Assembly (NCBI GenBank): GCA_903813345.2
Contig: CAIIXF020000004.1
Coordinates: 1,156,513 to 1,220,512 of the forward strand
Length of the DNA stretch: 64,000 nucleotides
From: Owenia fusiformis
Taxonomy: Eukaryota > Annelida > Polychaeta > Sabellida > Oweniidae
Direction of reading: 5' to 3'
Shown: positions 27,312-50,100 of the stretch, piece after piece
Numbering within the stretch: position 1 is the first letter of the stretch
Layout: each line of letters begins with the position of its first letter
The notes under the pieces: generated by a model
What the model was told of the DNA's origin: nothing
Database searches by the model: none
What the model saw: the letters and a program-made list of their open reading frames with translations, nothing else
Position numbers and translations under genes: made by a program

Positions 27312-27366
27312 TTAAGGCCAGGGTGCATGAATGAAATTTTGCTGCAACCCCCAATAGGGTCACATG
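27312..27366. mobile_element. Left part of a TTAA-type MITE split by the retroelement
   Basis: ttaaggccagggtgcatg at 27312-27329 is the exact complement of catgcaccctggccttaa at 40709-40726. With the retroelement and one target copy removed, the two ends enclose roughly 400 bp. This suggests a pre-existing TIR element into which the LTR element jumped. It abuts DOCK exon a's acceptor. Confidence 0.6.
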
Positions 27367-28069
27367 TGTGAGTAATAACACATAGTCTAATTCTTATCTT
27401 TCTCTTAGCCACAGATTAATATAAACAATATTATTATTGGAGACAGAATGCGACGTTTGTATGCCAATTGAGACACATTTATGCCAAATCATAATTGAGC
27501 GTATTCCAAACTCTCTTTTCCTAAGGAATACCAAAATACTGCATTCGCTAAACTGAGCTAGAAATATTGTAAACATACAATCAACTCTGTGAAATCATAA
27601 CAATCACAGAGTTGATTGTGTAATAAATGTACTGTCTATTTGTATAAACAATTATACCGATGAGGAATCTTCGGTCTCAGGAAAGAAGGCTGGATGATTT
27701 TGCCACACCAAACTTGGCACCAGTTTTCTATTCTCTGAGACCGATGATTCCATCATCGGCTAATTTAGTTGGCTAATTTTTAGTCGGCTGATATTATTAA
27801 CTAATTAACAACAGGGCACAGAATTAACAATATCGTACCTTTATTAGGTACGATAAAAAGAAAACCAGCAGACTATAAAAATGAATGTTCCAATGAATTA
27901 ATTAGAATTAACATTTAGATTTTGATAAAGAGCACGCTAAGAAAGATATTAAGACATAGAATATAAAAACTATTGAAAGAAAGTAAAAAGTAAAAAATAG
28001 AATAAAATATTGAATCAATAAGCAAATAGAGAATTTATGTTAACTTTATCTGATATAAAACGACTAACA
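27367..28069 (+). repeat. 5' LTR (703 bp)
   Basis: Starts TGTGAGTAATAACACATAG and ends CGACTAACA. Contains three clear hairpins: caatcaactctgtg/cacagagttgattg (27579-27620), cggtctcag/ctgagaccg (27669-27753) and tatcgtacc/ggtacgata (27831-27853). A TATA-like tataaaa is at about 27874 and an aataaa at about 28000, a plausible promoter-then-polyadenylation order for U3-R. Confidence 0.96.
27874..27880 (+). promoter_or_regulatory. TATA-like box in 5' LTR
   Basis: gactataaaaatga in the last third of the LTR. It is the only TATA-like motif placed upstream of the aataaa at ~28000, so it is a candidate U3 promoter. Inferred from sequence only. Confidence 0.45.
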
Positions 28070-28070
28070 T

Positions 28071-28088
28071 TGGTGGCAGCAGTAATGG
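28071..28088 (+). promoter_or_regulatory. Primer-binding site
   Basis: TGGTGGCAGCAGTAATGG starts one base after the LTR. The leading TGG is complementary to a tRNA CCA end. I cannot say which tRNA primes. Confidence 0.7.
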
Positions 28089-28345
28089 ACTCACGTCTTA
28101 GAAATATTTAGGAACAATTAAAAAATATTTCGATGCAATTGAAGATAGAAATAATATGGAAAAACTTTGGAAATAAACTTGGAACATAATCTGAAACACA
28201 AATGATTGAACTTATAGAAATCTTCAATAGTTTTGATAGGATTTGGGGACATTCATAACTTGGACATTTTTCGGAATCGTATTTCATACAATTGCGAAAC
28301 AATAATAGGATTGGATCGATAATAAAATGAACTGAAGATAAACAC

Positions 28346-28348
28346 GGT
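28346..28348 (+). promoter_or_regulatory. Candidate leader splice donor
   Basis: acacg/gtaggtga in the leader between LTR and gag. It is a good donor match and could pair with the acceptor-like sites upstream of the accessory ORFs. The rest of the leader (28089-28894) is AT-rich and has no ORF of note. Confidence 0.4.
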
Positions 28349-28894
28349 AGGTGAAATTATTAATTATAAATGACTTAACATTAATTTAAATGTCATTAAA
28401 ATAACTATATGGATATTCTTATGCTTGTATTATATTCTACACAACTTTAAAGACACTAGCTAAAAATGAAATAAAAAAGATATCAACTTTAAAGACACTA
28501 GATAAACATGAAATAAAAATATATAAATATAAAATCGGAATTGACATAGGATTTCTTAACTAAACATTTGCACCTTGGCTTTTGTCATTATTTTAACTAA
28601 AAGAATACATGAAATCGAACATTAAACTTTAATTGATTTTGTTGTGAACATTATTTGGATACGCTGCCTTTTATGTACAATAATAAATTATAAAGTATAA
28701 AATAGTGAACGATAAAAACAAATAGATGAAGCGACAAATATTTATATAAATATTCTGAAAGAATTTAAAAAAAAAACAATTCCGTTGCATTATTTTCAAA
28801 GTGCTTTTTATGGACATACCTGCCGACAAAAAAATTATTTTCCGGGAATTTTGATTTAAAAGATTCAATTTATCAGTAAAAATATTTGATAAAA

Positions 28895-30619
28895 ATGGCG
28901 AGTACATCAACAAATCCAACAGATCATACACCACTTAAGACCTTTCTGGCGGGAAAGGAGGGTGTAACGTCATTAGATACACTATCAAGAACACTAGATA
29001 CTTTGGATAAGGAAGGTGATAGTGAACAACAGATACCACCAGTATTGCATCGACAAATATTCAGTCAACAAAAACAAATTACCAAATTATTAGATCGGGA
29101 ACAGGAATTACAATCTAGGATAAGTGAACTGATGGACAAAAATGACTTTCTCTCAAGAGAACAAGAAAAAATGAGATCCCATTTTGAAGCTAAAGTACAA
29201 GTTATTGAACGAGGACAAGCTGCAAATATAGGACAACTGAAGGAAGAGAACAGCCTGATTTGGGAAGAAAATGAAAAGATGAAGGCAATCTTGGAGAAAC
29301 ACGAGTCAACCAGACAAAAACTACAAAGTGGTCCTTCAAACTCGCTAGAATCTGTTAAGAAAAGATTGTGTTTTGAGATCACAGATTCATCATCCGATGA
29401 AAGTGATGAAGAATATGACCATGAAGCAGAATCTAAAACCAAGAAATTAAGAGATGCTGAAAGAAAGTCACGAAGAGAGACACTTTATGATTTCAGAGGA
29501 AAGGGAAGCAAGTTGGATAGTGATGTTTTTAAGCCATCAACTACAATACAAGGTGATTTGGACAATCTTCATGAAACAAATATGTTTGAAGCAGAGAGTA
29601 CTAACAGAAAATACAAAAAACCTGCGACATATGACGGAAGGAACAGCTGGAGAGACTACAAAATCCATTTCGATATGATATCTGAAATCAATGGATGGTC
29701 TGACACAAATAAAGCCCTCGAACTAGCGACTGCATTAAGAGGCCCAGCATTGTCTATTCTAACTGATTTGAAAGATCGTGATAGACATGATTATGCAGCA
29801 ATGACGCAAGCCTTACAAGAAAGATTTGAACCAGCAAACCAGATTGAGATCTACAAAGCTGAATTACGTGGCAGACGCAGAAAACCAAATGAGAGTCTGA
29901 CAGAACTGGGTTCCGCAATTAAACGTTTGACACATCTAGCGTGGCCTGACTGTTCTAGCAAAACACGGGACAGAATGTCTATGGATAATTTCCTTGCTGC
30001 TCTACCAGATCGTGAAATCCGCTGGAGTGTGCGACAATCAAGACCGAAATCCCTTGAAGAAGCCATCAGACTGGCCTTAGAATTTGAGAGCTACAAACAG
30101 ACAGAGGGAACTTCTAGCTTGAATGTGCGATTTCAAGCAGTCACAACAGACAGTACAAGTGACCACGAGCACTCGCCTACACCACCACGGAGAAGGTTTT
30201 TACAACAACAGCGTTCAAGATCTCCCTCATGGACTGATTCAATCGAGAAGCTGTTGAGAAAATTGGATAAATTGGACAAGTTAGACCAGTTCGACTTTTC
30301 GAAAATCAACACTGGACTTCGAGGTAATAATCACAATGTTGGGTTCAGGCAGAAATATCCCCCCAGGTTCGCTAACCAAAGATGGACAAGACCCGATACA
30401 CCAAATCAAAGACGCTATGAGGGCCAGAGATACGTCAAGCAGGAACAAAGACCTGCACCATCGATTTTCACCAAGAACCGTAATACACAAGTAAATAGAA
30501 GGCGAGAAAATGTGACATGTTTTGAATGTGGAGAACAAGGACATTTATCCTATAACTGTGAAAATACTCAAAAACAAACACCCTCACCTAAAATACAAGC
30601 AGAGACATGGGGAAACTAG
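28895..30619 (+). CDS. gag: gag polyprotein of the retroelement
   Basis: 574 residues from the ATG in aaaaATGg. It forms the capsid/nucleocapsid. Residues ~45-150 are a long coiled coil (KQITKLLDREQELQSRISEL). About 240-400 is a retrotransposon gag/capsid-type helical domain (PATYDGRNSWRDYKIHFDMI, ALRGPALSIL). A basic Arg/Gln-rich region follows. Near the C-terminus is one CX2CX4HX4C knuckle (CFECGEQGHLSYNC) for RNA binding. The stop overlaps the pol ATG by 13 nt in the -1 frame, so pol could be made by -1 frameshifting within 30592-30619 or by reinitiation. I see no textbook slippery heptamer. Confidence 0.95.
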   Translation: MASTSTNPTDHTPLKTFLAGKEGVTSLDTLSRTLDTLDKEGDSEQQIPPVLHRQIFSQQKQITKLLDREQELQSRISELMDKNDFLSREQEKMRSHFEAKVQVIERGQAANIGQLKEENSLIWEENEKMKAILEKHESTRQKLQSGPSNSLESVKKRLCFEITDSSSDESDEEYDHEAESKTKKLRDAERKSRRETLYDFRGKGSKLDSDVFKPSTTIQGDLDNLHETNMFEAESTNRKYKKPATYDGRNSWRDYKIHFDMISEINGWSDTNKALELATALRGPALSILTDLKDRDRHDYAAMTQALQERFEPANQIEIYKAELRGRRRKPNESLTELGSAIKRLTHLAWPDCSSKTRDRMSMDNFLAALPDREIRWSVRQSRPKSLEEAIRLALEFESYKQTEGTSSLNVRFQAVTTDSTSDHEHSPTPPRRRFLQQQRSRSPSWTDSIEKLLRKLDKLDKLDQFDFSKINTGLRGNNHNVGFRQKYPPRFANQRWTRPDTPNQRRYEGQRYVKQEQRPAPSIFTKNRNTQVNRRRENVTCFECGEQGHLSYNCENTQKQTPSPKIQAETWGN

Positions 30620-33600
30620 ATGACGCTGGTTTGAAGGGGCTGACATCAGCGTACACAAGATGCCCCAAAGATGTGGTAAATATTAGCTGTAAGGACAGTC
30701 CTAATATATATGTAGATATAAACCAAACGCCTGTAAAATGCTTAATTGACACTGGTTCTGTGACTAGTATAATGTCAACAGACACTTATAATGACTTGAA
30801 CCCTGCACTAAAGCCAGAACTTCTAGAACAAGATGACCTCCTCCGTATGGCAAATGGTGAGCTTGTGAAGCCACTGGGGAAAATTGAAACGAAGATGACC
30901 ATTTTGCCAGATGTAATTGTGGATCAACCTTTCTTGGTTGCTGATACGACTGTTGAAGCCATTTTAGGAGCTGATTTTTTACGTAGAGAAAAATGTAAAT
31001 TAAATATGGAAGATGATACATTGTTAATCCGGGACACCCTGGTCAAGTGTTACCCTGAGGATAATTTTAATGTCTGTATAAATGCAGACACTGACATACC
31101 TGGTTGGTCTGAAAGTGTTGTCCCAGCCAGGGTAGTATGTCATGAAGACATTTGTGGTGATAAAGACTTTTTAGTGGAACAGAAAATGAGTAGAAATACG
31201 GAAGGATTACTCATATCTCGTGTATTGCTGGCCAGCAAGATGAATTTGACCAAAGTTCCACTTTGTATACTGAACACAAGAGGGAGCAGAAAGTTATACA
31301 AAGACACTGTCATGGCGGTTGCATCAACTATTTCTCGAGGAGACGTCCTGGGGACAACACAGTCGATGCCGATGATATATAACACCCGTCCTGTAGAATT
31401 TGGAGACGTTCAGTATAAATATGATGATATACCTGATGATGTTGTTAATGCTGATGATGGACAGCATGATTTACAAATGAGAATTGATGACCACAAACTG
31501 TTAAATGAGTCCGAAAAGGATACGACTCATATTGAAATAATGATAAATGAGGCTTCAGATAAACTATCAGAGGAGGAAACTAAAAAATTAAGACAATTGC
31601 TAGTAGAATTTAGCAACACTTTCTCAAGGTCTAAAAATGATATTGGATATACACAAGTTGTACATCATACCATAAACACTGGCAGTGCAACCCCTATTAA
31701 ACAGTCCCCGAGACGTTTACCCTTTGCGAAAAGGGAAGAGGCTCATAAGGAAGTAGATCGAATGCTTGAAGCAGGCATAATACAACCAAGTAAATCAGCA
31801 TGGAGCTCACCTATAGTATTAATCAAAAAGAAAGATGGAAGTACAAGATTTTGTATCGACTATAGAAAACTTAATCAAGTGACTGTAGCTGATAGTTACC
31901 CATTACCGAGGATAGATGACTCACTAGATGTGCTGGGAGGAGCGACAATATTTAGTTCACTTGATTTATCTTCTGGTTATTGGCAGGTGGCGCTACAACC
32001 AGATGATATACCAAAAACAGCTTTTTCTGTTCCAGGTCGAGGACTTTTAGAATTTCATGTATTACCTTTTGGCCTGATGAATGCACCTAGTTTATTTGAA
32101 CGTTTGATGGAGACAATCCTTGCACGGAACTTATGGGAAATCTGTTTAGTCTACCTCGATGATATCATCGTATTTGGAACTAATTTTGATCAACATCTCA
32201 ATAACCTACGGACTGTTTTTACTGCAATGAAGAATGCTGGACTAAAACTCTCTCCTAAGAAATGTCATCTTTGTCAAAATTCGTGTAAATTTTTAGGACA
32301 TATTGTTTCGTCTGATGGCATAGGAACTGACCCAGCAAAGATTGAGGCGGTGAAGAATTGGAAAAGACCAAGAAACAAGAAAGAAATACGTTCATTTCTT
32401 GGTTTAGCATCATATTATCGTCGATTTGTGGAAGGATTTGCCAATATTGCTCGGCCTTTACACAGATTAACAGGAGATGGTGTGAGTTTTAAATGGGATA
32501 ATGAGTGCGATGAAGCATTCAATAAACTAAAGGATAAGCTCATATCCACATGTGTTCTTTCTTATCCTTTACCTGGCGTTCAATTTATCTTGGACACTGA
32601 TGCGAGTGGATGGGCTGTTGGTGCAGTATTATCTCAAAAACATGAAGACTTGGAATGCGTAGTTGCCTATTATTCTGCAGCCTTGAGTCGTACTGAGCAG
32701 AATTATTGTGCAACTAGAAGGGAATTACTAGCGATAGTGAAGGCAGTGAAACACTTCCATCATTATGTTTATGGTGCACGATTCAAAATTAGAACAGATC
32801 ACAGTGCTCTACAGTGGCTTTTCAATTTCAAACATCCGGAAGGCCAGATAGCAAGATGGTTAGAGACACTAGGTATGTACCAATTTGTTATTGAGCACCG
32901 TAGCGGAAGTAAACATGGAAATGCAGATTCTCTATCTCGGAGACCATGCCCAGATGATTGTGTTCACTGTGAACGAAAGGAGCTGACTGAGAAAATGGCC
33001 AAAGAGAGGAATACCTCCCATGATGTTATGGTTTTGACAAGAACACAGCGAAAGAAATTGGAGTCAAAATCTTCCAACACAAATGACAATATATTATTCT
33101 CTTGGCCAAGTCCATTAAATGCAGAACAGATACGACAGTCACAGTCGCAGGATCCGGTTCTTGCAAAGATCATAGGTTGGAAAGAATCTGCTAAAAGACC
33201 AGAATGGAAAGATATATCCGGACTCAGTCCTGAGATCAAGTCATACGTTTCTCAGTGGAATAGACTTCATCTTATTGATGGAGTTTTATACAGGAAATGG
33301 ATAGTTTTGAATACATCAGTGACTAGATGGCAGTTGGTTGTACCTAGGGGAATCAAATCAACAATTATGAACCACTTACACGATTCTCCAGTCGGTGGCC
33401 ATTATGCAGCTGACAAGACTCTACAAAATGCCAGAGGTCGATTTTATTGGTATGGATATGGAAGTGATATAGACAATTGGGTGAAAACATGTGATGAATA
33501 TCAAAAGAGGAAACGTCCTCACCACAAGCCAAAAGCACCTCTGAAGCTATACAATGTGGGAGCCCCCATGGAAAGAATTTCGTTGGATATTGTAGGTCCA

Positions 33601-34494
33601 TTTCCGAGAACAGCCAGGAGAAACAAATATGTTCTGTCGATATCAGATCATTTCACTCGATTTGCAGTTGCGATTCCAATGAAGGATATTGAAGCAGAAA
33701 CAGTAGCACGTGCGCTAGTAGATAACTTTTTAAGTATGTTTGGCATACCGTTGCTCATACATTCTGATAGAGGAACACAGTTTACCTCAAAGCTGTTTGC
33801 CTCACTTTGTAGTATTTTGGGCATTGACCATACCATGTCAACTCCTTACCATTCCCAAGGGAGCGGTTTGATTGAGAGACTTCACTTGACATTTGAAGGA
33901 ATATTAAGCAAAACTATCGCCAAGAATCAATCTGATTGGGATTTACACTTGCCATTGTCAATGATGGCATATAGGAATGCAGTTCACAGGTCAACAGGAT
34001 TTAGTCCCAATGAAATGTTTTTTGGACGCGAACTGAGATTACCTGTTGATTTGCTAATCGGACGCTGTCCTTCAGTTGAGTTACCCAAAACTCCAAGTAC
34101 TTATGTACATGATATGGTTGAACATATGCATATGGTACATGAACTAGCAAGGGACAACCTCGATATTTCTAGTAGAGCATGGAAAAAACAATATGATCAT
34201 CGTGGAGTTCACCAGAACACGTACAAATTAGGAGACAAAGTTTTATTGTACACTCCCAGATTGTCTGTTGGATGCGCTTCAAAGTTAACAAGTTTTTGGG
34301 ATGGACCTTACATAGTCATTGACAAACTATCTGATTTAGTGTTTCGGATAAAGAAAATAAAAGGCACAAAAGAACACGTGGTGAATCATAATAGACTTAA
34401 ACCCTACTTTGATAGGTGTGTCTCTGATGATATTTGTGCTGACAAATTCATAACAGTCAAATCTAATATGGACAAACCTGATGATACTTGTTAA
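30607..34494 (+). CDS. pol: pol polyprotein (PR-RT-RNase H-integrase)
   Basis: 1295 residues. Aspartic protease: LIDTGS near residue 48, ILGADFL ~115. Reverse transcriptase: RFCIDYRKLNQ, then YLDDIIVF ~515. RNase H: DTDASGWAVGAVLSQ ~663, RRELLAI, TDHSALQWL. Integrase: zinc-binding region (HDSPVGGH), then a D,D35E core with LDIVGPFP ~992, HSDRGTQF ~1052 and IERLH ~1088, followed by a GPY/F-like module (WDGPYIVIDKL). No chromodomain seen. The zinc-binding region reads CDEYQKRK where the family has C-x2-C, so one zinc ligand is Tyr. No internal stops. Confidence 0.97.
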   Translation: MGKLDDAGLKGLTSAYTRCPKDVVNISCKDSPNIYVDINQTPVKCLIDTGSVTSIMSTDTYNDLNPALKPELLEQDDLLRMANGELVKPLGKIETKMTILPDVIVDQPFLVADTTVEAILGADFLRREKCKLNMEDDTLLIRDTLVKCYPEDNFNVCINADTDIPGWSESVVPARVVCHEDICGDKDFLVEQKMSRNTEGLLISRVLLASKMNLTKVPLCILNTRGSRKLYKDTVMAVASTISRGDVLGTTQSMPMIYNTRPVEFGDVQYKYDDIPDDVVNADDGQHDLQMRIDDHKLLNESEKDTTHIEIMINEASDKLSEEETKKLRQLLVEFSNTFSRSKNDIGYTQVVHHTINTGSATPIKQSPRRLPFAKREEAHKEVDRMLEAGIIQPSKSAWSSPIVLIKKKDGSTRFCIDYRKLNQVTVADSYPLPRIDDSLDVLGGATIFSSLDLSSGYWQVALQPDDIPKTAFSVPGRGLLEFHVLPFGLMNAPSLFERLMETILARNLWEICLVYLDDIIVFGTNFDQHLNNLRTVFTAMKNAGLKLSPKKCHLCQNSCKFLGHIVSSDGIGTDPAKIEAVKNWKRPRNKKEIRSFLGLASYYRRFVEGFANIARPLHRLTGDGVSFKWDNECDEAFNKLKDKLISTCVLSYPLPGVQFILDTDASGWAVGAVLSQKHEDLECVVAYYSAALSRTEQNYCATRRELLAIVKAVKHFHHYVYGARFKIRTDHSALQWLFNFKHPEGQIARWLETLGMYQFVIEHRSGSKHGNADSLSRRPCPDDCVHCERKELTEKMAKERNTSHDVMVLTRTQRKKLESKSSNTNDNILFSWPSPLNAEQIRQSQSQDPVLAKIIGWKESAKRPEWKDISGLSPEIKSYVSQWNRLHLIDGVLYRKWIVLNTSVTRWQLVVPRGIKSTIMNHLHDSPVGGHYAADKTLQNARGRFYWYGYGSDIDNWVKTCDEYQKRKRPHHKPKAPLKLYNVGAPMERISLDIVGPFPRTARRNKYVLSISDHFTRFAVAIPMKDIEAETVARALVDNFLSMFGIPLLIHSDRGTQFTSKLFASLCSILGIDHTMSTPYHSQGSGLIERLHLTFEGILSKTIAKNQSDWDLHLPLSMMAYRNAVHRSTGFSPNEMFFGRELRLPVDLLIGRCPSVELPKTPSTYVHDMVEHMHMVHELARDNLDISSRAWKKQYDHRGVHQNTYKLGDKVLLYTPRLSVGCASKLTSFWDGPYIVIDKLSDLVFRIKKIKGTKEHVVNHNRLKPYFDRCVSDDICADKFITVKSNMDKPDDTC

Positions 34495-34539
34495 TAAAAA
34501 AACAAGTCAGAATAACGTTTATGTACTATTGAACAACAC

Positions 34540-34905
34540 ATGAAAATATTGTGTTATAGTATGAAAATGAGTGGCATAGATGATAGTACTCATACAAAGT
34601 CAATTGAGATATCTGATGAGGATCTTATAAATTTAACACTTATAGATTTCCATCGCATTATTGAGAATCTTGATCATTTTACAAAAGAGTATTACCGACG
34701 ACGTCGTAGAATGTTGAAAAATAGGATATATTCTTCAAATTCAAAAAAGAGAATTAGAAACAGATTAGAAAAAGAAAGAAACTTTTTAAGAAAAGAAAAT
34801 GATCGCTTACAAATTGAAAATTATTTGATGAAACAAGAGGTACAATATTTGAAAAATAAATACATAATGACTGAGTATCTACAAACGACAAATACATCTG
34901 GTTAA
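34540..34905 (+). CDS. Accessory ORF 1: basic region plus leucine zipper (bZIP-like)
   Basis: 121 residues. Acidic N-terminus, then a basic run (residues 53-80: RRRRRMLKNR and KKRIRNRLEKER), then a heptad series with Leu76, Leu83, Leu90, Met97 and Leu104, ending in NKYIMTEYL. This is the layout of a DNA-binding, dimerizing bZIP factor. However, the distance from Asn61 to the first zipper leucine is about three residues shorter than canonical, so a plain coiled-coil or RNA-binding protein is possible. It lies 45 bp after pol. I know of no standard Ty3/gypsy gene like it. Confidence 0.75.
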   Translation: MKILCYSMKMSGIDDSTHTKSIEISDEDLINLTLIDFHRIIENLDHFTKEYYRRRRRMLKNRIYSSNSKKRIRNRLEKERNFLRKENDRLQIENYLMKQEVQYLKNKYIMTEYLQTTNTSG

Positions 34906-34931
34906 TTTATACCTATTTGATTGCAGAAATT

Positions 34932-35141
34932 ATGGCGATGGACAATTCTCCAATTACTTATTTCTGGTATAGACCTGAGAGGGTAGATAATATTACATTG
35001 CAGCTGGACAATGCACCTGTTACAGATACTTCAAATTCACAAGACTCAGATCGTGTTTCATTCTCTGATTCCCCATCAGAACCTGATGTTCCAGTTATCG
35101 AAAATCATCAGTATTCTTTAATGCACGCACCAGAGGAATAA
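34932..35141 (+). CDS. Accessory ORF 2: small Ser/Asp/Pro-rich protein
   Basis: About 69 residues from MAMDNSPITYFWYRPERVDN, acidic and serine-rich (SDRVSFSDSPSEPDV). Function unknown. The sequence tttgattgcag directly before it is an excellent splice acceptor, suggesting expression from a spliced message. It could also be the 5' portion of a spliced env leader. Confidence 0.5.
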   Translation: MAMDNSPITYFWYRPERVDNITLQLDNAPVTDTSNSQDSDRVSFSDSPSEPDVPVIENHQYSLMHAPEE

Positions 35142-35155
35142 CATTTGACATTGAG

Positions 35156-37110
35156 ATGGCTCATATAATACTACACGTGTATCTTAGTATTATGCTACTG
35201 CATTACGCTCATTGTATTGATCCAGTTTTGAACAACCAATTGGTGTGTTCTTTAATCCCATCAAGAAACTTGAAATGTCTGAATCAAAGTTTTATTATAC
35301 TTTGGGATTCAAATGGCCATCGAGGATACAAGAAAATTTGGCTCAAGACATTAATTGTGTGACATATAGCAATATGTCTTCTTGGAACAATCGTTTACGT
35401 ATCAATCCTTCTACAGCCTTATACTCGTGTTCGAGAGCTAAAGCTATTATGGAACAGATGGACTCCGATATACAGGGACTTGATCTTCGTATACAAAAGA
35501 TGACCACGAACGTGCGACAGTCTCTTCCTAAATTGAACGATATTAGCAGTAAGCGAGCATTATTACCGTTTATAGGAGATGGTATGTCATTTTTATTTGG
35601 TGTAGCCACAACTGACAGCGTGAGAGTCTTAAGTGACCATATATTAACTTTGGAAAAGTCACAGAGAAATATAATTTCAAGTACCAACAATCTAAGACAT
35701 GACATATTGGCTATTACAAATCTTACAAACAGTAGAGTGGACAATCTTGTTTCAGTGGTAAAACAGAATCAAGTAAAAGTGAAACAATATTTCGTGAATA
35801 TTTCATCTACTCTTCTTGGTCTTCAAAAACGTTTTAATGCGGCTCTTATACACTCACAACTTGTGGAATCTGTGATGATTACACTAATCGATGCAGTAAG
35901 AATACACAGTCAACATTTGACGCTAATAGAAACGGGATATGCTGCCTTCTTAAGTGGCATTCAAACTGTTCTTGCTGGTCGACTCCCACAGACACTCATT
36001 GAACCAGAAAAACTAAGATGGATATTGGAAGAAGTGGACAGATCTTTACGTACACAGAGGGACGATTGGGAGATATCTCATAAAGATATATCATTCTACT
36101 ACCGTGATGTCGTTTGTTTCCCTGCTGCGACAAACGAAGCTTTGTACATTCAGATTCACATCCCAATTCACAAGGCACAAAGTCCCCTGAGTCTATACTC
36201 AGTACATACCCTGCCAGTTGGACTGCATGGACGTTCAGTAACAAAAGTTATGAAATTACCTGATTATTTTGGTATAAGTGCTATGGCTGACCGATATATT
36301 GAAATGTCTTCAACAGAATATTTATCTTGTGTGAATTCACCTAGCTGTTCTGGACTTTTAAGACCAAAACGATTAGATCTCGACACATGTATTGCGCAAA
36401 TATATCTTGGGAATCTAGTTGCAGCATCTGAAGCATGTACTATTAACGTAGCCTTGAACTATACAACTGATGAATTAGCTTATGTAGGACAATATGTGAT
36501 GATATCAAATGGCACTGGAACACTAAAAATGATTTGTAATGGTAGTAATCATCAATTATGTAACAATTTAGCTTGTTTTGCGAAAATACCATGTGGATGT
36601 GTAGTTATGTCATCAAATCAACAATTATTTGCTGACATATCTACCTGTGAAAAGGTCGCTATAATAGTACCACAAATTCAACCAAATGTACCTTTTCATT
36701 TTCATTTTTCGGATGACAAAATTGCACCATATCTCAGAGTTGAAGATTTACATGATCTTGCACCTATGAGGTTGCCTGATGTGCCAAATTTTACTGACCC
36801 TGAAACAGGAGATGATCAATTCAGACATAGGTTGTTAGATGTAATTAAAAATCTCAAAGAGAGTAATTCATGGATTCAAGAACCTTTCTATTCGAATGAT
36901 TTAAATTCATTGAACTCAACTTGGATTGATTTGGTACAATTTATTATCCTTGTGGTACTGTTAATCATATCGGTTGCTCTATTTGTACTTTATAAAAGGC
37001 AGCGTTCCATCATTTTAAAACTCGGAAAGGTAATAGCTAGGTGTGCAAAAACAAAACAAACTCACTTATCAGATAATCCTATGATTGAGATGGCAGAAAC
37101 CACTTTATAG
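35156..37110 (+). CDS. env: env: F-like class I membrane glycoprotein (5' end frame-displaced)
   Basis: The main frame is open 35245-37110 (621 codons). It contains a dibasic SSKR followed by ALLPFIGDG, a hydrophobic stretch like the fusion peptide of baculovirus-F/errantivirus-type envelopes. Next are a heptad-rich region, many Cys and N-x-S/T sites, a transmembrane segment near residues 561-583 (FIILVVLLIISVALFVLY) and a ~38-residue basic tail. This is a predicted cell-surface protein of the element. A signal-peptide-like start (MAHIILHVYLSIMLLHYAHC, from 35156) lies in a different frame that overlaps and closes at 35362. The entry signal and ectodomain are therefore out of register in this copy, through an indel, recoding or splicing. 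Confidence 0.85.
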
Positions 37111-37198
37111 ACACTCATTTTTTGCAATTTTTGACCTATTTTGATAATATTGTTATAAATATTAACAATTATTACAACAATTATATTGTACATTGCAG

Positions 37199-37657
37199 AT
37201 GGAATGGACTTGCCATATTTGTCTTAAAGAAGATGGTATTTCGGAAGTTTATAGCGATTTTTTAGAATATTTTGACCATTTAGCGGATATTCATGAAGAA
37301 CTGCCCCAGGGTTCGACAGTAAAGAATTGGTTATGTGCAAGTACTCCAAGCAACTCATCTAGCATTCCATCTGATGTTATAACAATTGATCAAGCATCAA
37401 TTTCTTCAAATAACTCTGAATTGTCAACATATTCATCTGAAGTAACAACAACCAATGACAAATCAACATCTTCAAACGCTTCTAGTATCTTAAAGTGCCC
37501 ATTTTGTGACATCGTATTTCATAATAATATTCATCATACCATGCACATGAAGACTCATAGCATCAATAACCACAAGAAATGCACACTATGCGGATTTAAT
37601 TTCATCACTGAAGAAGCCTTTGCAGTTCATTTTTATATCATAAATCATCACATTTAA
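37199..37657 (+). CDS. Accessory ORF 3: C2H2 zinc-finger protein, Ikaros-like fingers
   Basis: 152 residues from the ATG that directly follows the acceptor-like tacattgcag. One N-terminal finger-like CX2C (CHIC...HLADIH), a Ser/Thr-rich spacer, then two adjacent C-terminal fingers: CPFCDIVF with an HMKTH end, and CTLCGFNF with HFYIINHH. The pattern C-x2-C...HM-x2-H then C-x2-CG...F-x2-H recalls the paired C-terminal fingers with which Ikaros/Hunchback-family factors dimerize. That link is my inference from motif pattern. Function in the element is unknown. Confidence 0.75.
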   Translation: MEWTCHICLKEDGISEVYSDFLEYFDHLADIHEELPQGSTVKNWLCASTPSNSSSIPSDVITIDQASISSNNSELSTYSSEVTTTNDKSTSSNASSILKCPFCDIVFHNNIHHTMHMKTHSINNHKKCTLCGFNFITEEAFAVHFYIINHHI

Positions 37658-37663
37658 TACAGT

Positions 37664-38251
37664 ATGGGTGAAAATCTCATGAACATGCTAAACCCGGATG
37701 ATCGTTGTTCTAACATACCTGTTATCATACCTATAATAATCAACCATTATGAAGATATAACACCTCTAGAAAATCTAGATTTTGAGAATGATTTTAATTT
37801 TGAAGATATGTTACTGGATGCTGAGGAAGTTGTGCAACAAGATGAAGAAGAACAAGATTTACTCCAAAGAGCCATCCAGGAGGCAGATTTGCCCATGGAT
37901 TGGGAAGAATTTTTGGAGTCTGTAATGCAGCCTTCATCTTCTTTCATAGTTGGTGTGGAGGCTGAATTACAGATTGCCAATAATTTATCTTTCGATATTT
38001 GGGAAACAGCAGTCATTGAGAATTTTGAGCTAGTGGCCCTGTCAGTCTGCCCAGTCTCAGTGATTGCTGACAATACATTTACTTGTTTCACAGCTTCACA
38101 GTGTCATTCCTTCCATTCCACGCATGTATACGAATGCATCTATTGTCAAATCTCATTTCTTGATGAGGATTTACATTTATTACATATGTCCCATCATGTA
38201 GACAATAGATGCCTTTGTGCTACATGCGGCACAAATTTTGCAAATTACTAA
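37664..38251 (+). CDS. Accessory ORF 4: acidic protein with C-terminal C2H2 finger
   Basis: 195 residues, starting 7 bp after the previous stop; an acceptor-like taatacag lies just before its ATG. A long acidic region (residues ~30-90, DEEEQDLLQRAIQEADL, MDWEEFLES) looks like a transactivation domain. The C-terminus has CIYCQISFLDEDLHLLHMSH, a complete CX2CX12HX3H finger, then CATCG of a second finger that ends at the stop without its histidines. The finger pair resembles that of the preceding ORF, so the two may be diverged duplicates or partners. Confidence 0.72.
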   Translation: MGENLMNMLNPDDRCSNIPVIIPIIINHYEDITPLENLDFENDFNFEDMLLDAEEVVQQDEEEQDLLQRAIQEADLPMDWEEFLESVMQPSSSFIVGVEAELQIANNLSFDIWETAVIENFELVALSVCPVSVIADNTFTCFTASQCHSFHSTHVYECIYCQISFLDEDLHLLHMSHHVDNRCLCATCGTNFANY

Positions 38252-39657
38252 TTGTTGGCTTTACATCTTATGAATCATTTTTAGGGAGTTGAGAGGTATG
38301 AGTAAAAAAAGAATTCTATGGTTTGTTATTTAGTGGTTATATTTTTGCTACAATGTTTATTATATTTGGATTGTTGTTTTCAAAAATATTGACATTGTGA
38401 AAATATTTTCATAATATTGTTAAGTTACTTATTCTTCACTGAGTTTGTTGTTATTTATTATGACTTGGAACACTAAATACGCTAGATATTTTGTCATAGA
38501 TGTTTTGTTAGCAAAATCCATGAGCCTGGATTATTTTGACATTTGACGTTTAACATTTTTTTGCCATGATAAGAAGTACTGTTAGGATATTTTGAAATGA
38601 AAGAGAAAAGTTCTTGTAAATACATTTTAGATTTATAGTAACTATATAGATCATATGTACATTATATTTAGTATTACCTATTATAACTTTATACCATCAA
38701 TTTATATTATTACTTTATATGTAATGGTCTATTATGTATATATATTATATAACAAAGATGATGATGATTATGATGATGATGATATTGATGATAATAATGA
38801 TGATAAATTGATTTATCAAATAACACGCGTCTACTTACGAGACACTATCTTGTTTGTGACTAAACATAAATAAGAAGTAAAGTCATACTGACTGATTATT
38901 TCAGCACGACATCTTTAAGATTAAAACATCATCAAATGTATGTAATAATGTATAAATAGATATGTCATATTATGCATGATCTTATCTAAATACTCATAGG
39001 ATTTATATCTCTATATGAAATCAGAATGAACAAAATGAAGGTCATTCTAATGTAATGGATTAATTATTCCATTGTTGAATGATGAGATTTATCTAACATG
39101 GTAATACTATGTTTTTAATGAAATGATATTAGAGAGATATCCTCATAAATGGAAATTAAACTTTTGTTTCTATATAGCTACCTGTTATAATTATACATGC
39201 ATTGAACTTTGATTTATTGATCAATTAATTGTAATGTACACCCATTTTTGTAGGTTATAAACCTAGGTGATTTATAAATATGATATAAGTACATTCTGAA
39301 ATCTCTCTGATATATACATATATTTTAGCTGAGCTTTTATATTGCTTTTGTACTATGTTTGGATGGATCAACACACTCTGTGCTATATTGCATCAAATGG
39401 ATGAATTGTAACTGTTCAGAATTTAAAAAATGATATTGTTATTCCATAATTTTTTTATGAATTGAACAATGTATCAGGATTATCTATACTTTAAAATGCT
39501 GAAGTTGGTCAAGTTGTTAGATAATCGTTGATTAAATAAGAATTTGTTGGTATTTGGAGTAGTATTATAATTCACTCAAAGTGTGTTGTTCTTATCTATA
39601 TGCGCTTGAATTTTTTTTTTTTTTCTTATTGATTCTATGTCAGCCCGGAGGTCTGAG
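38252..39657 (+). other. Retroelement 3' untranslated region
   Basis: 1.4 kb of AT-rich sequence without a credible ORF. It contains a short (GAT)n tract at 38756-38812 and a T-run near 39610. Confidence 0.7.
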
Positions 39658-39658
39658 G

Positions 39659-39673
39659 CTAAGAGGGGGGTAA
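39659..39673 (+). promoter_or_regulatory. Polypurine tract
   Basis: The purine run aagagggggg followed by taa lies directly before the 3' LTR, the expected plus-strand primer. Confidence 0.8.
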
Positions 39674-40376
39674 TGTGAGTAATAACACATAGTCTAATTC
39701 TTATCTTTCTCTTAGCCACAGATTAATATAAACAATATTATTATTGGAGACAGAATGCGACGTTTGTATGCCAATTGAGACACATTTATGCCAAATCATA
39801 ATTGAGCGTATTCCAAACTCTCTTTTCCTAAGGAATACCAAAATACTGCATTCGCTAAACTGAGCTAGAAATATTGTAAACATACAATCAACTCTGTGAA
39901 ATCATAACAATCACAGAGTTGATTGTGTAATAAATGTACTGTCTATTTGTATAAACAATTATACCGATGAGGAATCTTCGGTCTCAGGAAAGAAGGCTGG
40001 ATGATTTTGCCACACCAAACTTGGCACCAGTTTTCTATTCTCTGAGACCGATGATTCCATCATCGGCTAATTTAGTTGGCTAATTTTTAGTCGGCTGATA
40101 TTATTAACTAATTAACAACAGGGCACAGAATTAACAATATCGTACCTTTATTAGGTACGATAAAAAGAAAACCAGCAGACTATAAAAATGAATGTTCCAA
40201 TGAATTAATTAGAATTAACATTTAGATTTTGATAAAGAGCACGCTAAGAAAGATATTAAGACATAGAATATAAAAACTATTGAAAGAAAGTAAAAAGTAA
40301 AAAATAGAATAAAATATTGAATCAATAAGCAAATAGAGAATTTATGTTAACTTTATCTGATATAAAACGACTAACA
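39674..40376 (+). repeat. 3' LTR (703 bp)
   Basis: Same length and, by visual comparison, the same sequence as the 5' LTR. The flanking catg matches the 5' flank. Confidence 0.96.
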
Positions 40377-40380
40377 CATG

Positions 40381-40726
40381 TTAATTTTCAAATATGAATC
40401 ACTCCTTCCCCATTATGTCTACATTTTTCACTTTTGCACAACAAATGCACTAATGTACCTAGAAAAGAATGGAAATAAGAATGTTTTGATATAAAAAACA
40501 AGAAAATCCAGTGAAAAAATTCTGAAAATTTTTAGAAATTTTTTTCACTGAATTTTCTCGTTTTTTTATATGTCTTTACCCAAAAAATCTTCTCACCAGT
40601 CTTATATAAGCACGTAAGTGCACTCTTTTTGGAAAACTGGAAGATGTAGACAATGTGGGGAAGGAGTGATTCCTGTTTGACTCAATTGAGGAATGCAGAA
40701 AAATTCTGAACATGCACCCTGGCCTT
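40381..40726. mobile_element. Right part of the TTAA-type MITE
   Basis: Ends in catgcaccctggccttaa, complementary to 27312-27329. It also contains its own inner inverted pair, atgaatcactccttcccc (40396) and ggggaaggagtgattcc (40657), and a central A/T palindrome. Confidence 0.6.
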
Positions 40727-40739
40727 AAGCAATTCATAT

Positions 40740-46330: not shown

Positions 46331-46493
46331 CAAAAACAATAGACTCCAGATTGATATCTGGAGTCTAATAAAGAAGAAGAAGAAGAAGAATACTGGCAAA
46401 AGTAATAGACTCCAGATTTTCAATCTTCAATTATAGAAATAATTACTTTTTTATCCTTATGTGTTGTTATTTCTTTGATAAAGGTGATCAAAG

Positions 46494-47145
46494 ATGGGCA
46501 CTAGCATTGACCAATGGCGATGTGCTATTGGCAGATTCAACCCATGTAGACAGCCCAACAGATGCGACAATACAGAAAGGAGGGCAGAAAGAGAGTATCA
46601 TAAAGCTCTACATAAGAATAAAGGCCATCAAAACAGTGCTAGTCATGAGAGTAAAATTCAACAAAGGCAACACCTGTACTGTAGTGACCAAAAGAATACA
46701 ATCACGCCAAATGAACATGTGGACAATTTGAAACGAAAAGCACAAGAGCTTGCAAACCAATGCAATGAATGGTTTGAAGTGGCTAGAAAAGGCTACACTG
46801 ATACAACAGCTACACATAAACAAAATGCATCCGTGAACAGCACTGTAACAGCATTCCAAGAAGAGAGAAGCCAAGGTGTGATTGCTAGTGTTCAAAAAGT
46901 AGCTTCCAGTGAAAACAACTCAATGAATTACAATGAAGTCACAAAACAAGGAAGTCCAACCATTAATCACCAGGAGAGTGACCCAGTACATCCACATCAG
47001 TCAAAAAACATCATTGAGTATGTAAAAGTACCGATGAACCAGCACTGGGCTGAGTCACTACAGAATCTTCCCCAGTTATTATTGATCATCATTCTCTTAC
47101 TAATAATTGGTGGGATTGAAGTCAACCCTGGTCCTCAAACACAGG
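46494..47145 (+). CDS. Exon 1: N-terminal region with 2A-like peptide
   Basis: From ATG 46494 (MGTSIDQWRCAIGRF): a charged, Gln/Asn-rich region, then LLLIIILLLIIGGIEVNPGP at residues ~195-214. The 2A consensus is D(V/I)ExNPGP, with the ribosome skipping between G and P. Here the Asp is Gly. Skipping would release a 213-residue leader from the OTU-TPR protein. If skipping fails, the hydrophobic run could act as a signal or anchor. Two donors fit phase 1 (47145 or 47151). Confidence 0.8.
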
Positions 47146-50100
47146 GTAAAGGTAACCAGAATTAAGAACAATTTCTTCTGAATATTACATTCAGTATTCA
47201 GAGAAGCAAAATGTAATTGTTCTTTTACAATGCAATATAAATATTTATTTAGCTCTGGACTAATCTAATAACCATTAAGCATCAGAATGAACTAGATAAC
47301 GGCAACTCCGCGGAGTAGCAAATCCCAACGAACAAAATATCAATTACCGAATTCAAATCAATTATACTCATTACTTTGGTTAAAATTGAAAAAATTAGAT
47401 TTTAGAATTGCGAATTCCTGCAAAGCAGCCATTTTGAATTTTCTGAGGTACAAATCTGAAAAATAATACCATAATTGTGATCTACTCCGAAAATCCTTCA
47501 ATTTGAGTATAATATAGCCATACTTTGAAGGGATCGGAAAATTATTGCGAAATCGTACATAAGACGGCCATTTTGAATTTTACGAGGCTCGAATCAGAAA
47601 AAAGATACAATATTTGCAATCTACTCTTAATTGCCTTTCATTTGAGTATAATAAAGCTATACTTCAGAAAGATCTAAAAATTAGGGAAAATTTCTGTTTT
47701 CCTGACCCCCCATACACGGCCCCTGGGGGTCAGAATGAAAAACACGGAATATATGTGAAATAGATAAATTTTGTGAATATACTTCCAAAATTTCAAACAA
47801 TAATATTAATTACTTTGGTTTAGAATGAAAAATTTATGATTTTTGCGAAAAAGTCCCGTCATTTTTAAAGCGGCGGCCATCTTGAAAAAATTTTTTTTGC
47901 GTAAAACTATTTACCAATATACATCTTTCCACTAAATATGAAGAAAATCTGTCGACCAGTATTCGAGTTATCTTCCGGACGGACAGACGGACGGACGGAT
48001 GGACTGACAGATGGACTGACGGACTGACTGACGGACGGACGGACGGAGGGCTTCACTATATCCCTACCGAACTTCGTTCGTTGGGATAATTAGCAGTAAA
48101 TAATAAAATGAGAAGCTGAGACTTTGATTTATTGAAGCAATTCAGTATATTACTGTAAAAGCTGTAAATTTTAATTATTTTACACAAATAAGCCAGGGAT
48201 TAATTTTTTTATTTATAACATTGGAGGGGTATTAAACATTAGACCAGACCTGAGTGCACAGTATTCTGTTTTGTTTCAGATAGTGCAAAAACAGCAACCC
48301 ACTTTGAGACTTCAGTCCTTGAACTTTTACGTTCATTACTCAATTCCGAAAGAATCAACTTGAATACTTCAACCCCCCTGGGACTCATTGAAGATGTTGT
48401 GACCAAACATGGACTGACAATTGTGGACAATGAGGGCAGTGGTGATTGCCTGTTTCAAGCCTTGTCCCATCAACTGGCCTACACCAAGACAGCCAATATA
48501 GATCACATAGATTTACGAGAGAAGCTAGTAAAATATGCAAAGCACCATCCATTACTGGTAAGTGCTTGATATCAAATGATTTCTTCAATGTAAAATAACA
48601 ACATATGTTATGACACAACCTATCCAAGTTGATAAAACTCATTATGAGAATCATTTCAAATTTTCAACAGTATTTGCTTTCTTATTCTGACATGCCATAT
48701 ATTTTGTCATGTCTTTCATCTTCAGCCAAATGGAGAACATGTGACAACACAGTTTGACACTACCATCATAGATGACTGGACACGGTACAACGCAAGTCAC
48801 CTTGAAATAAATGACGATGAAAAAACAAAGCTAGCATGGTATACAGAGTCCTACATGAACAAGCCGGGGACTTGGGGTGATAATCTAATGATCTGGGCAT
48901 TTACTCAACTCTTCGATGTTGATGTTGAAATTTTCTCTCAGGGGTCAGAGAATTCCTACAAAATAACTGCCAATAATAACAGCGATAACAAGGTCATTGT
49001 TCGGCTCGGGTATATACCACATACCCACTTTCTAAGCCTTGTTAGTTGCAAAGGTACTTTGGCTGCATTTTTGAACTGCCCACGGCGCAAGTCAGTTACA
49101 TAATGTTTAATAAGTTTTCACCCTAGGTATCACAAAAAAGGAACAATAAGCCTAGCAGTGCAAATTTCATGGTCACACATTTTTGTCAAAAACAGCTCAT
49201 CCAAAATTTCTACAGTCACATAATTCTTTTGAAAGACATCACGGTTCATAGCAGTGGAACTCCTGTGGTACACTAGCAGAGAGCTGACGCAGTTGACACA
49301 TGCGGTTGGCTGACAATGTTGCCACTGTGTAATTAGCAGTTTAAGTACACTTGGATGAGCTGTTTTTGTTGAAAAAGTGTGAGAATTGTAATCTGCAATG
49401 TAGGGACTCGTTGTTCTTTTTTATGAACAACGAGGGGAAAACTTATTAAACATTGTGCAATATACCTGCGTCACAGGCAGTTCAAAAACTCAGTCTAAGA
49501 TTGTAACATGAAAACACCTTTCTGGTTTTTAGATTGTGACTTTAGGAGTAAATCAATTAAGAATGTTTTCTTTATGGAAGTAGAAGAGAACAATTGCATT
49601 TATAATCAATATTTAATGAACATTAATAGAGGAGTCTCCATATTGATTTGAAATCCCATTTATTCTAATTTTCTCATGCGATTTTAAGAGATTTGCACTT
49701 TTAACCTCTAACCACTAACTTTTCTTTCTTTTTGTAAGCATATTTGAATTCAGTGAATTTTTTTCTACAACAATAACTTGATTATACAGTTGACATTTAA
49801 ATAATTTTCCATGCCTTTTAAAAAAAAAATTGGTCCAAATCTCCATTGATGCAGTGCTAAGATACATTAAAACCTTGGTTTATCCGTTCAATAACCAACG
49901 ATTTCATGATTAATCACAACAGGTACATTGACAGAGTCATCATTTTAGACAGATTCAATCATAACTTTTTGATAATGAAATCAAGTAACTATTGCAAGCA
50001 TTTAAAACTGAAGTGAATGGAAGTCTGACTCAAGCAAAACCAATAATGACAAGGGTGACATCTATTATATCAGCTTTATCCAGCTATTTAGAAACTATGG

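Follow-up and report, generated by a model that had tools for sequence, protein, structure and literature searches.

The window analysed here, a stretch of 64,000 nucleotides from Owenia fusiformis (GCA_903813345.2, CAIIXF020000004.1:1,156,513-1,220,512, forward strand), contains an LTR retroelement with gag, pol, env and four accessory ORFs, inserted into a host MITE. Its features are listed below by position in the window; subfamily B is a sister subfamily in the same genome.

27312..27362, no strand: left arm of the host MITE entered by the element (right part at 40381-40728)
27363..27366, no strand: target-site duplication CATG, left copy (right copy at 40377-40380)
27367..28069, +: 5' LTR, 703 bp, same sequence as the 3' LTR, TG...CA ends
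28070..28088, +: primer-binding-site region, placed by convention directly after the 5' LTR
28347..28348, +: candidate splice donor within the leader, second among 579 GT sites scored with an ad hoc weight matrix
28895..30619, +: gag, 574 aa with a CCHC knuckle; Pfam matches slightly below cut-off (Retrotrans_gag 1.3e-4, zf-CCHC 0.0027)
30607..34494, +: pol, 1295 aa, with protease, RT, RNase H and integrase (Pfam)
34540..34905, +: bZIP ORF, 121 aa, small-Maf-like (PF03131 1.1e-10; MafG 3.5e-8; grouping with host small Maf)
34932..35141, +: acidic ORF, 69 aa, net charge -10, 55% identical in subfamily B
35156..35362, +: env start with a signal-peptide-like frame that differs from the frame of the env body in the window copy
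35275..37110, +: env body, Baculovirus-F-like, 611 aa (PF12259, 34.7 bits, cut-off 24.1, 1e-8)
37199..37657, +: ZF5, C2H2 protein of 152 aa with one N-terminal and two C-terminal fingers (PDB zinc-finger chains)
37664..38251, +: ZF6, acidic C2H2 protein (net charge -34) of 195 aa, ending within its last finger (PDB zinc-finger chains)
39651..39673, +: purine-rich, PPT-like tract before the 3' LTR, seen in the sequence
39674..40376, +: 3' LTR, 703 bp, 0 differences from the 5' LTR

Insertion, class and envelope gene

A preliminary description of this DNA had proposed a young gypsy-type element. The LTR divergence, which it left to be computed, was zero over 703 bp, and the CATG duplication was present on both sides. 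Two MITE copies that lack the element have a single CATG and represent empty sites; the MITE has inverted arms at 27312-27362 and 40678-40728 and occurs at dozens of further places. The window copy is a young insertion, and no near-identical source copy of it was found in this assembly. A motif scan of the 5' LTR located a TATA-like sequence at 27874 and AATAAA at 28001. A hairpin at 27650-27765 with a stable fold (-59.8 kcal/mol, z -10) was considered as TAR-like and rejected: LTR stretches ~275-414 and ~461-497 also occur on their own at other genomic places, are located 5' of the TATA-like sequence, and were read as dispersed foldback repeats.

The Pfam domain order of pol (protease-RT-RNase H-integrase) and the TG...CA LTRs with a 4-bp duplication place the element in Ty3/gypsy (Metaviridae), for which an excerpt of PMC12440569 gives duplications of 4-6 bp. 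Retroviridae features, namely a dual RNase H and a retroviral RT as closest relative, were not found, since pol has one RNase H stretch (residues 630-758) and is closest to Ty3. Among the best 60 of 96 matches to solved structures, Ty3 Gag-Pol (7q5b) came first with 1.4e-115, followed by 4ol8 RT/RNase H (2.2e-91), likewise from Ty3, 8r0s (2.9e-65) and others at 1.3e-38 or weaker. The best matches of the pol core, among the best 40 of 120, were 50-53% identical over ~810 aa. Twenty of 150 listed RT places, queried with the seven ORFs, matched pol only; neither env nor any accessory ORF had a match there at E<=0.01. IMG/VR scans with env and pol gave no match.

The proposed F-like env was upheld by a PF12259 match above the Pfam cut-off, and its position 3' of pol is a feature of errantiviruses. 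Env start and body form a single frame in three relatives (L026, L031, L040). Among 5.8 billion proteins, env had one remote match, with 20% identity.

Accessory genes and their conservation

The ORF described earlier as bZIP-like exceeded the curated bZIP_Maf cut-off: the match, which includes the EHR, covered profile positions 1-88 of 92 with 42.4 bits (cut-off 22), and the subfamily B bZIP reached 45.3 bits. Element bZIPs scored 75-77 bits against host small Maf, 49-53 against MafG and 38-44 against host large Maf. In an 11-row tree, which superseded a 6-row tree without root placement, they grouped together (99/100) and with host small Maf (89/98); ATF-2 was left out of this tree, which carried a long-branch warning and had one of eight inner branches (A+B) fully supported. 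By this one small tree and the bit scores, the short protein belongs with small rather than large Maf. The core of the subfamily B bZIP also matched ATF-2, with 47% identity across 55 aa and 38.9 bits (PDB search: 24.3 bits), which is fewer bits than for MafG or host small Maf.

Element bZIPs are 41-43% identical over 93-99 aa to the host small Maf (C9:37763377, L029) and have the EHR, basic region and zipper in common with it. In contrast to the host protein, they lack the C-terminal IKKEP tail and, in both subfamilies, three residues between basic region and zipper. This non-canonical spacing, which could make DNA binding weaker or different, marks them as Maf-derived rather than standard small Maf proteins. 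Judged by sequence, the bZIP is a small-Maf derivative, because it exceeds the bZIP_Maf cut-off and groups with the host's own small Maf. Pfam recognised no further domain in its 121 aa, and a search of 5.8 billion proteins returned three candidates, none at E<=0.01. An AlphaFold2 model from the single sequence was mostly helical and was set aside as too weak for use (mean pLDDT 74.7, pTM 0.31). CNC-like and small Maf genes (the names are ours) are present in the host genome.

PDB zinc-finger matches and the charge of ZF6 agree with the earlier view of two zinc-finger proteins, one of them acidic. Pfam gave zinc-finger matches for ZF5 only below cut-off and no match for ZF6 or the acidic ORF. 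The last ZF6 finger, broken off in the window copy, is complete in subfamily B. ZF6 also has an acidic LPMDW-x-x-FL segment, which by eye may be an activation domain. ORF lengths were above chance: in 2000 Markov sequences with matching dinucleotide composition, read on the sense strand, an ORF of 121 aa occurred in the pol-env gap in 2 and one of 152 aa 3' of env in none. The long ORFs of the preliminary description were thus confirmed in length, but they are not all intact, as env lies in two frames and ZF6 ends within its last finger. Of the recent or current activity suggested there, youth follows from the identical LTRs, whereas present activity of the window copy is unsupported because of the damage to env and ZF6.

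Within the same genome, ZF5 and ZF6 were each found at 13 places and the bZIP at seven element places, including the window (matches were grouped into places by us), so the accessory ORFs are not confined to this copy, as a chance capture of host sequence might be. Subfamily B comprises four copies, whose pol pieces are 76-84% alike; its gene content and gene order match those of the window element. BZIP, acidic ORF and env occur in all four; ZF5 and ZF6 occur in both copies in which downstream DNA was read and, by search coordinates, in the other two. Gene content, homology and common order are directly shown. Several B copies are damaged: the bZIP of L027 has a stop, pol is broken in L024 and L026, and L032 has its ZF6 in more than one frame.

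Between the window and subfamily B, amino-acid identity and pN/pS were.47 and.39 for the bZIP,.55 and.42 for the acidic ORF,.51 and.39 for ZF5,.44 and.47 for ZF6,.69-.70 and.25-.28 for env, and.81 and.17 for the pol end, with synonymous sites near saturation (pS.61-.90). The accessory proteins thus remain 44-55% identical despite near-saturated synonymous sites, so all four are under purifying selection. Approximate Fisher p values for the accessory frames were 9e-6 to 1e-21, assuming 22% synonymous sites.

The accessory set varies among copies. At 6 of the 13 ZF5/ZF6 places no bZIP match was found; of these six, C9:16479872 was the one read at the bZIP position, and there env and ZF5 are present and the bZIP is cleanly lost. 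Swapped zinc-finger modules make some copies mosaic, suggesting that zinc-finger genes move as modules. A distant family (env 28% identical) has a ZF5-like gene 3' of env (tblastn 1.7e-8, four-piece database) but lacks a bZIP, which makes a later gain of the bZIP probable; the cross-family match could reflect fingers in general. At C12:19623786 (env 28%), no accessory gene was recognised within 1.8 kb upstream and 2.05 kb downstream, and no upstream pol match was found. In C285, a 120-aa ORF before env that looked Skp1/BTB-like by eye was dropped after Pfam and PDB gave nothing usable.

Proposed regulation and alternatives

With a probability of roughly 60%, we consider the window element young but damaged, and a member of an env-bearing Ty3/gypsy (Metaviridae) lineage with a self-evolved, conserved accessory set that acts as follows. 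We infer the order of gain, splicing, trans-activation, bZIP pairing and small-Maf hijacking. The ancestor probably already had a C2H2 gene (ZF5) 3' of env; the lineage of the window element would then have acquired a small-Maf bZIP gene, from an animal close to the host, together with the small acidic ORF and ZF6 as a second zinc-finger gene, acidic in character. Accessory genes would most likely be expressed from spliced mRNAs, using the leader donor and acceptors at the ATGs, with candidate acceptors at 34927, 37199 and 37663. An acceptor-like TTGCAG lies closely 5' of the acidic ORF here and in subfamily B, and an acceptor-like CAG adjoins the ZF5 ATG here and in B (L033), C9 and C3 copies; accessory acceptor scores are ordinary (ranks 53, 58 and 108 of 785). 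ZF6, with its acidic segment and fingers, would trans-activate the LTR, and the Maf-like bZIP, paired with bZIP proteins of the host, would modulate transcription from the LTR or of host genes. The altered basic-zipper spacing and the lack of a MARE or AP-1 consensus in the LTR count against this scheme.

Since the accessory set is kept in related elements of the same genome, a gene-control kit of their own may have arisen in such elements, parallel to complex retroviruses such as HTLV. A broader reading, offered tentatively, is that a Metaviridae lineage independently became a complex retrovirus, infectious, env-bearing and with its own regulators; a hijacked small Maf would couple its transcription to, or disarm, the host CNC-Maf pathway, zinc-finger modules would be swappable trans-activator-like cassettes, and the window copy would have come recently from outside the genome. 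Complex regulatory sets are usually seen as a mark of some vertebrate retroviruses. If the proposal is true, four selected accessory genes in a Ty3/gypsy element, one captured from a host transcription factor, would represent a separate origin of the complex-retrovirus life-style and a test system for the recruitment of host regulators by retroelements.

It is conceivable, if doubtful, that the host rather than the LTR is the main target of the accessory genes. The short Maf-like protein, which has no activation domain, would then be a decoy for host small Maf/CNC pairs (stress or immune genes) or compete with them, and the two zinc-finger products would counter silencing. A scan of the LTR detected no TGCTGA/TCAGCA (MARE) or TGASTCA (AP-1) consensus, and the missing MARE favours such a role, as do the small-Maf size of the bZIP without a recognised further domain, its altered basic-zipper spacing, and the CNC-like and small Maf genes of the host; however, ZF6 resembles an activator more than an inhibitor. 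Passenger genes, one-off captures or chance frames functionless for the element, might be suspected from the bZIP loss at C9:16479872 and the truncated ZF6, but this is very improbable and already disfavoured by four frames conserved at pN/pS 0.39-0.47 across near-saturated synonymous sites, while only ~93 bp of the 1.4-kb gap between ZF6 and the 3' LTR are recognisably alike between window and B.

An ordinary, old errantivirus-like family with extra ORFs already catalogued, new only in its host, also seems unlikely. Excerpts of PMC5408684, PMC7264820 and PMC9289625 report extra ORFs in LTR elements, and Chary and Hayashi have surveyed env-bearing elements of metazoans. Yet the protein search gave no bZIP match at E<=0.01 and only the remote env match, and no LTR element with a Maf gene, or retrotransposon with a bZIP/Maf gene, was found among the papers listed, judged by title or abstract start, a scope outside which that survey lies.

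Comparison with known systems

The earlier statement that Ty3/gypsy elements carry at most env is too strong. According to an excerpt of PMC5408684, LTR elements of bdelloid rotifers, likewise invertebrates, have extra ORFs besides gag and pol; those named there are a DEDDy exonuclease, a GDSL esterase and env-like ORFs, with no transcription factors among them. The errantiviruses of insects (gypsy/mdg4 and relatives) have a Ty3-type pol, an F-like env 3' of pol and LTRs in common with the window element, a likeness by gene plan and env profile. Their duplication is 4 bp, as here, and they are not known to carry genes beyond gag, pol and env, whereas the window element adds four conserved accessory genes.

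Complex retroviruses (HTLV, spumaviruses, lentiviruses) likewise have a number of small accessory genes, located in the pol-env gap and 3' of env, and spliced expression is a possible common trait. In contrast to them, the window element has a Ty3-type pol and an F-like env, and a Pfam scan gave no Tax-, Tas- or Tat-like family match. HBZ of HTLV is also a bZIP protein, whereas the window bZIP is encoded on the sense strand and small-Maf-derived. The captured gene of the avian retrovirus AS42 is a large-Maf oncogene. AS42, which carries v-maf according to an excerpt of PMC4763111, is likewise a retroelement with a captured Maf-family gene; it represents one acute capture, whereas the window element has a small-Maf gene that purifying selection has maintained in two subfamilies.

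Gene content, insertion and age of the element

The element lies in the window at G000:C4:1156513-1220512 of the 498-Mb Owenia fusiformis genome (G000, the host assembly). Features discussed below are:

27367-40376, retroelement with its LTR pair
34540-34905, bZIP ORF
34932-35141, acidic ORF
37199-37657, zinc-finger ORF ZF5
37664-38251, zinc-finger ORF ZF6

Gag gave capsid and CCHC matches, both just under the Pfam cut-off; Pfam domains of pol comprised protease, RT, RNase H, H2C2 and integrase, and env had a Baculovirus F match above the cut-off. Between pol and env is the bZIP ORF, which matched PF03131 (bZIP_Maf) at 42.4 bits, above the cut-off of 22; its nearest solved structure was MafG (3.5e-8), followed by Nrf2 (0.0011) and MafA (0.0048). 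The acidic ORF (69 aa) is directly downstream. ZF5 and ZF6 are C2H2 ORFs 3' of env whose finger pairs are alike (BLASTP 4e-6), and ZF6 is strongly acidic (net charge -34). ORFs of such length are unlikely to occur by chance.

The two 703-bp LTRs do not differ, and CATG is present on either side. The insertion host is a MITE of the foldback type whose inverted ends are bounded by TTAA. Its right part was detected at many further places (at least 85 matches, with the best 40 of 1152 candidates scored), and in both MITE copies fetched the site was uninterrupted and CATG single. With no difference over 703 bp, the insertion is at most about 0.4-2.1 million years old if substitution rates of 5e-9 to 1e-9 per site per year are assumed. 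Thus, the recent origin proposed in the preliminary description held, but current activity of the window copy was not supported, as this copy is not intact. In env, the signal-peptide-like start (35156) and the body occupy two reading frames here but a single one in the relatives L026, L031 and L040; in addition, a stop interrupts the last finger of ZF6, which is whole in subfamily B, a sister subfamily with the same gene order. The env frame break and the ZF6 stop may each be an assembly error.

The nearest near-full-length LTR outside the element was 88% alike (among matches listed; best 40 of 159 candidates scored), and other pol matches were either broken fragments (93-98%) or the B copies (78% at the DNA level). 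Therefore, the LTR and pol matches listed from this assembly did not include a source copy; it may be polymorphic, unassembled or from outside this genome. Several other LTR copies carry about 60 extra bases at LTR position 78/79 (about 27445), so that the U3 of the young window copy differs from theirs. Two strong hairpins within the LTR (27641-27780 and 27827-27863) were also detected on their own at other genomic places and are thus dispersed foldback repeats.

Other frames were present in the window. An ORF at 46488-47165 ends in GIEVNPGP, which we take to be a 2A-like motif, and an OTU-like frame under the Pfam cut-off follows downstream (48648-49103); these two may be what is left of another element. 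At 50627-54752, a frame matching DUF294 nucleotidyltransferase precedes a long TPR-repeat ORF that contains a 129-bp tandem unit.

Occurrence and selection of accessory genes

The accessory ORFs, which the preliminary description presented as the element's own regulators, are shared with further copies. The bZIP query gave 11 matches in the same genome, corresponding to seven element places (window included) and one host gene. ZF5 (16 matches; best 150 of 241 candidates scored) and ZF6 (20 matches) identified the same 13 places, seven of which also had bZIP, plus one doubtful ZF5 match; matches were grouped into places by hand. At C9:16479872, the sole bZIP-less place read at that position, bZIP is cleanly absent between pol and the acidic ORF.

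Subfamily B accounted for four of the seven bZIP places. Its copies are 98.6-99.2% alike over 3.3 kb, and their pol pieces are 76-84% alike to the window element. All four contained bZIP, acidic ORF and env, and both copies read downstream (L032, L033) contained ZF5 and ZF6. Damage included a stop in one bZIP, broken pol in L024 and L026, and a ZF6 spread over frames in L032. Two B copies, C6:18634367 (-) and C6:18658487 (+), are 24 kb apart in opposite orientation with pol broken near the same residue, and are probably an inverted segmental duplication.

Between window and B, accessory proteins were 44-55% identical, and pN/pS was 0.39 for bZIP, 0.42 for acidic ORF, 0.39 for ZF5 and 0.47 for ZF6, whereas env had 0.25-0.28 and the pol end 0.17. 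Synonymous sites were near saturation (pS 0.61-0.90), and dS was not computable for bZIP, ZF5 and ZF6 for this reason. In approximate Fisher tests, with the share of synonymous sites set at 22%, p ranged from 9e-6 (acidic ORF) to 1e-21 (ZF5). In the ~1.4 kb from ZF6 to the 3' LTR, about 93 bp adjoining the LTR were recognisably similar to B.

Origin and history of accessory genes

Searching the genome with PF03131 yielded 12 matches, six of them element places; host matches were small Maf, large Maf, CNC-, Jun-, Fos- and XBP1-like genes, with names assigned from translations. In an 11-row tree, window and B bZIPs grouped together (99/100) and both with host small Maf (89/98). Points against this placement are the small size of the tree, in which one of eight inner branches was fully supported, a long-branch warning and a similarity to ATF-2, which was left out of the tree. 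Element bZIPs scored 75-77 bits against host small Maf, 49-53 against MafG and 38-44 against host large Maf; the similarity to ATF-2 concerns the B bZIP core (38.9 bits, 47% over 55 aa). Three residues that separate basic region and zipper are missing from both element bZIPs, and heptad leucines (L, L, L, M or I, L) carry on past this gap. Because of the tree grouping, scores and gap with continuing heptads, the sequence reads as a captured, remodelled small Maf. Capture from the lineage of this host, whose genome was the animal genome searched, or from a close one would be the simplest reading. No bZIP protein match at E<=0.01 was detected among 5.8 billion proteins.

In the C2:18910861 family (env 28% identity), a C2H2 protein directly behind env has the plan of ZF5, i.e., an N-terminal finger, acidic linker and C-terminal pair (tblastn 1.7e-8 in a four-piece search that omitted composition correction), and the pol-env interval contained no bZIP. 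ZF5 therefore looks older than bZIP, with the caveat that zinc fingers tend to look alike. The C285 family (env 33%) had no bZIP before env, and its contig stops 723 nt past env; in the parts of the C12 family (env 28%) that were read, no accessory gene was recognised. At C285:2450-4300 (L039), env is preceded by a different ORF of 120 aa that lacks a usable match, and the pre-env slot may thus serve accessory genes generally.

Several copies combine the two subfamilies. The C9 copy is a mosaic of window-like pol (95%) and env (93%) with a ZF5 of B type (96% like B, 46% like the window), and at C8:13770682 an env piece 88% window-like is followed by B-type ZF5 and ZF6, whose matching parts are 84-92% and 91% like B. 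The degraded C3:16118205 has an A-type (window-like) bZIP (89%) and a ZF5 38% like that of the window, B-type by eye; C3:8051300 retained A-type ZF5 (93%) and ZF6 (88-92%). Elsewhere on C8 (13.87-14.15 Mb), 15 env-like matches, 14 of them on the + strand, occur in 280 kb. They are 21-28% identical to the window env, with open frames of 201-853 aa, and some may belong to a single gene; the cluster may be a hot spot for insertion or else domesticated env genes in an array.

Proposed expression, function and precedents

Accessory proteins may be made from spliced mRNAs. With an ad hoc matrix, a strong donor-like site in the leader (28347) ranked 2 of 579 GT, and acceptor-like sites at the ATGs of acidic ORF, ZF5 and ZF6 ranked 53, 58 and 108 of 785; none abutted the bZIP ATG in this scoring. 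Acceptor placement alone is weak, because an AG of this kind lies within 8 nt of 53 of the element's 327 ATGs. Conservation is the better argument: B retains the sites at acidic ORF and ZF5, and C9 and C3 copies likewise retain that of ZF5.

ZF6 is a putative activator, given its acidic half with an LPMDW..FL segment conserved in the window-B alignment, and bZIP would partner host bZIP proteins. Two readings are considered for the latter. bZIP may control the LTR; a motif scan found no MARE (Maf recognition) or AP-1 consensus site there, and LTR control is therefore only one of the two. Alternatively, bZIP may be a decoy for host Maf/CNC pairs.

Env had one remote match (20%) among the 5.8 billion proteins, and the pol core was ~50-53% identical to its nearest relatives (at most 62%, in the RT-RNase H part). 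Among titles and abstracts on captured bZIP/Maf, accessory genes and env-bearing gypsy elements, mainly from the open literature and outside the Chary and Hayashi survey, none described a Maf-like gene in an LTR element. Related precedents are LTR elements of bdelloid rotifers, with captured enzymes (PMC5408684), and the AS42 retrovirus, with v-maf (PMC4763111).
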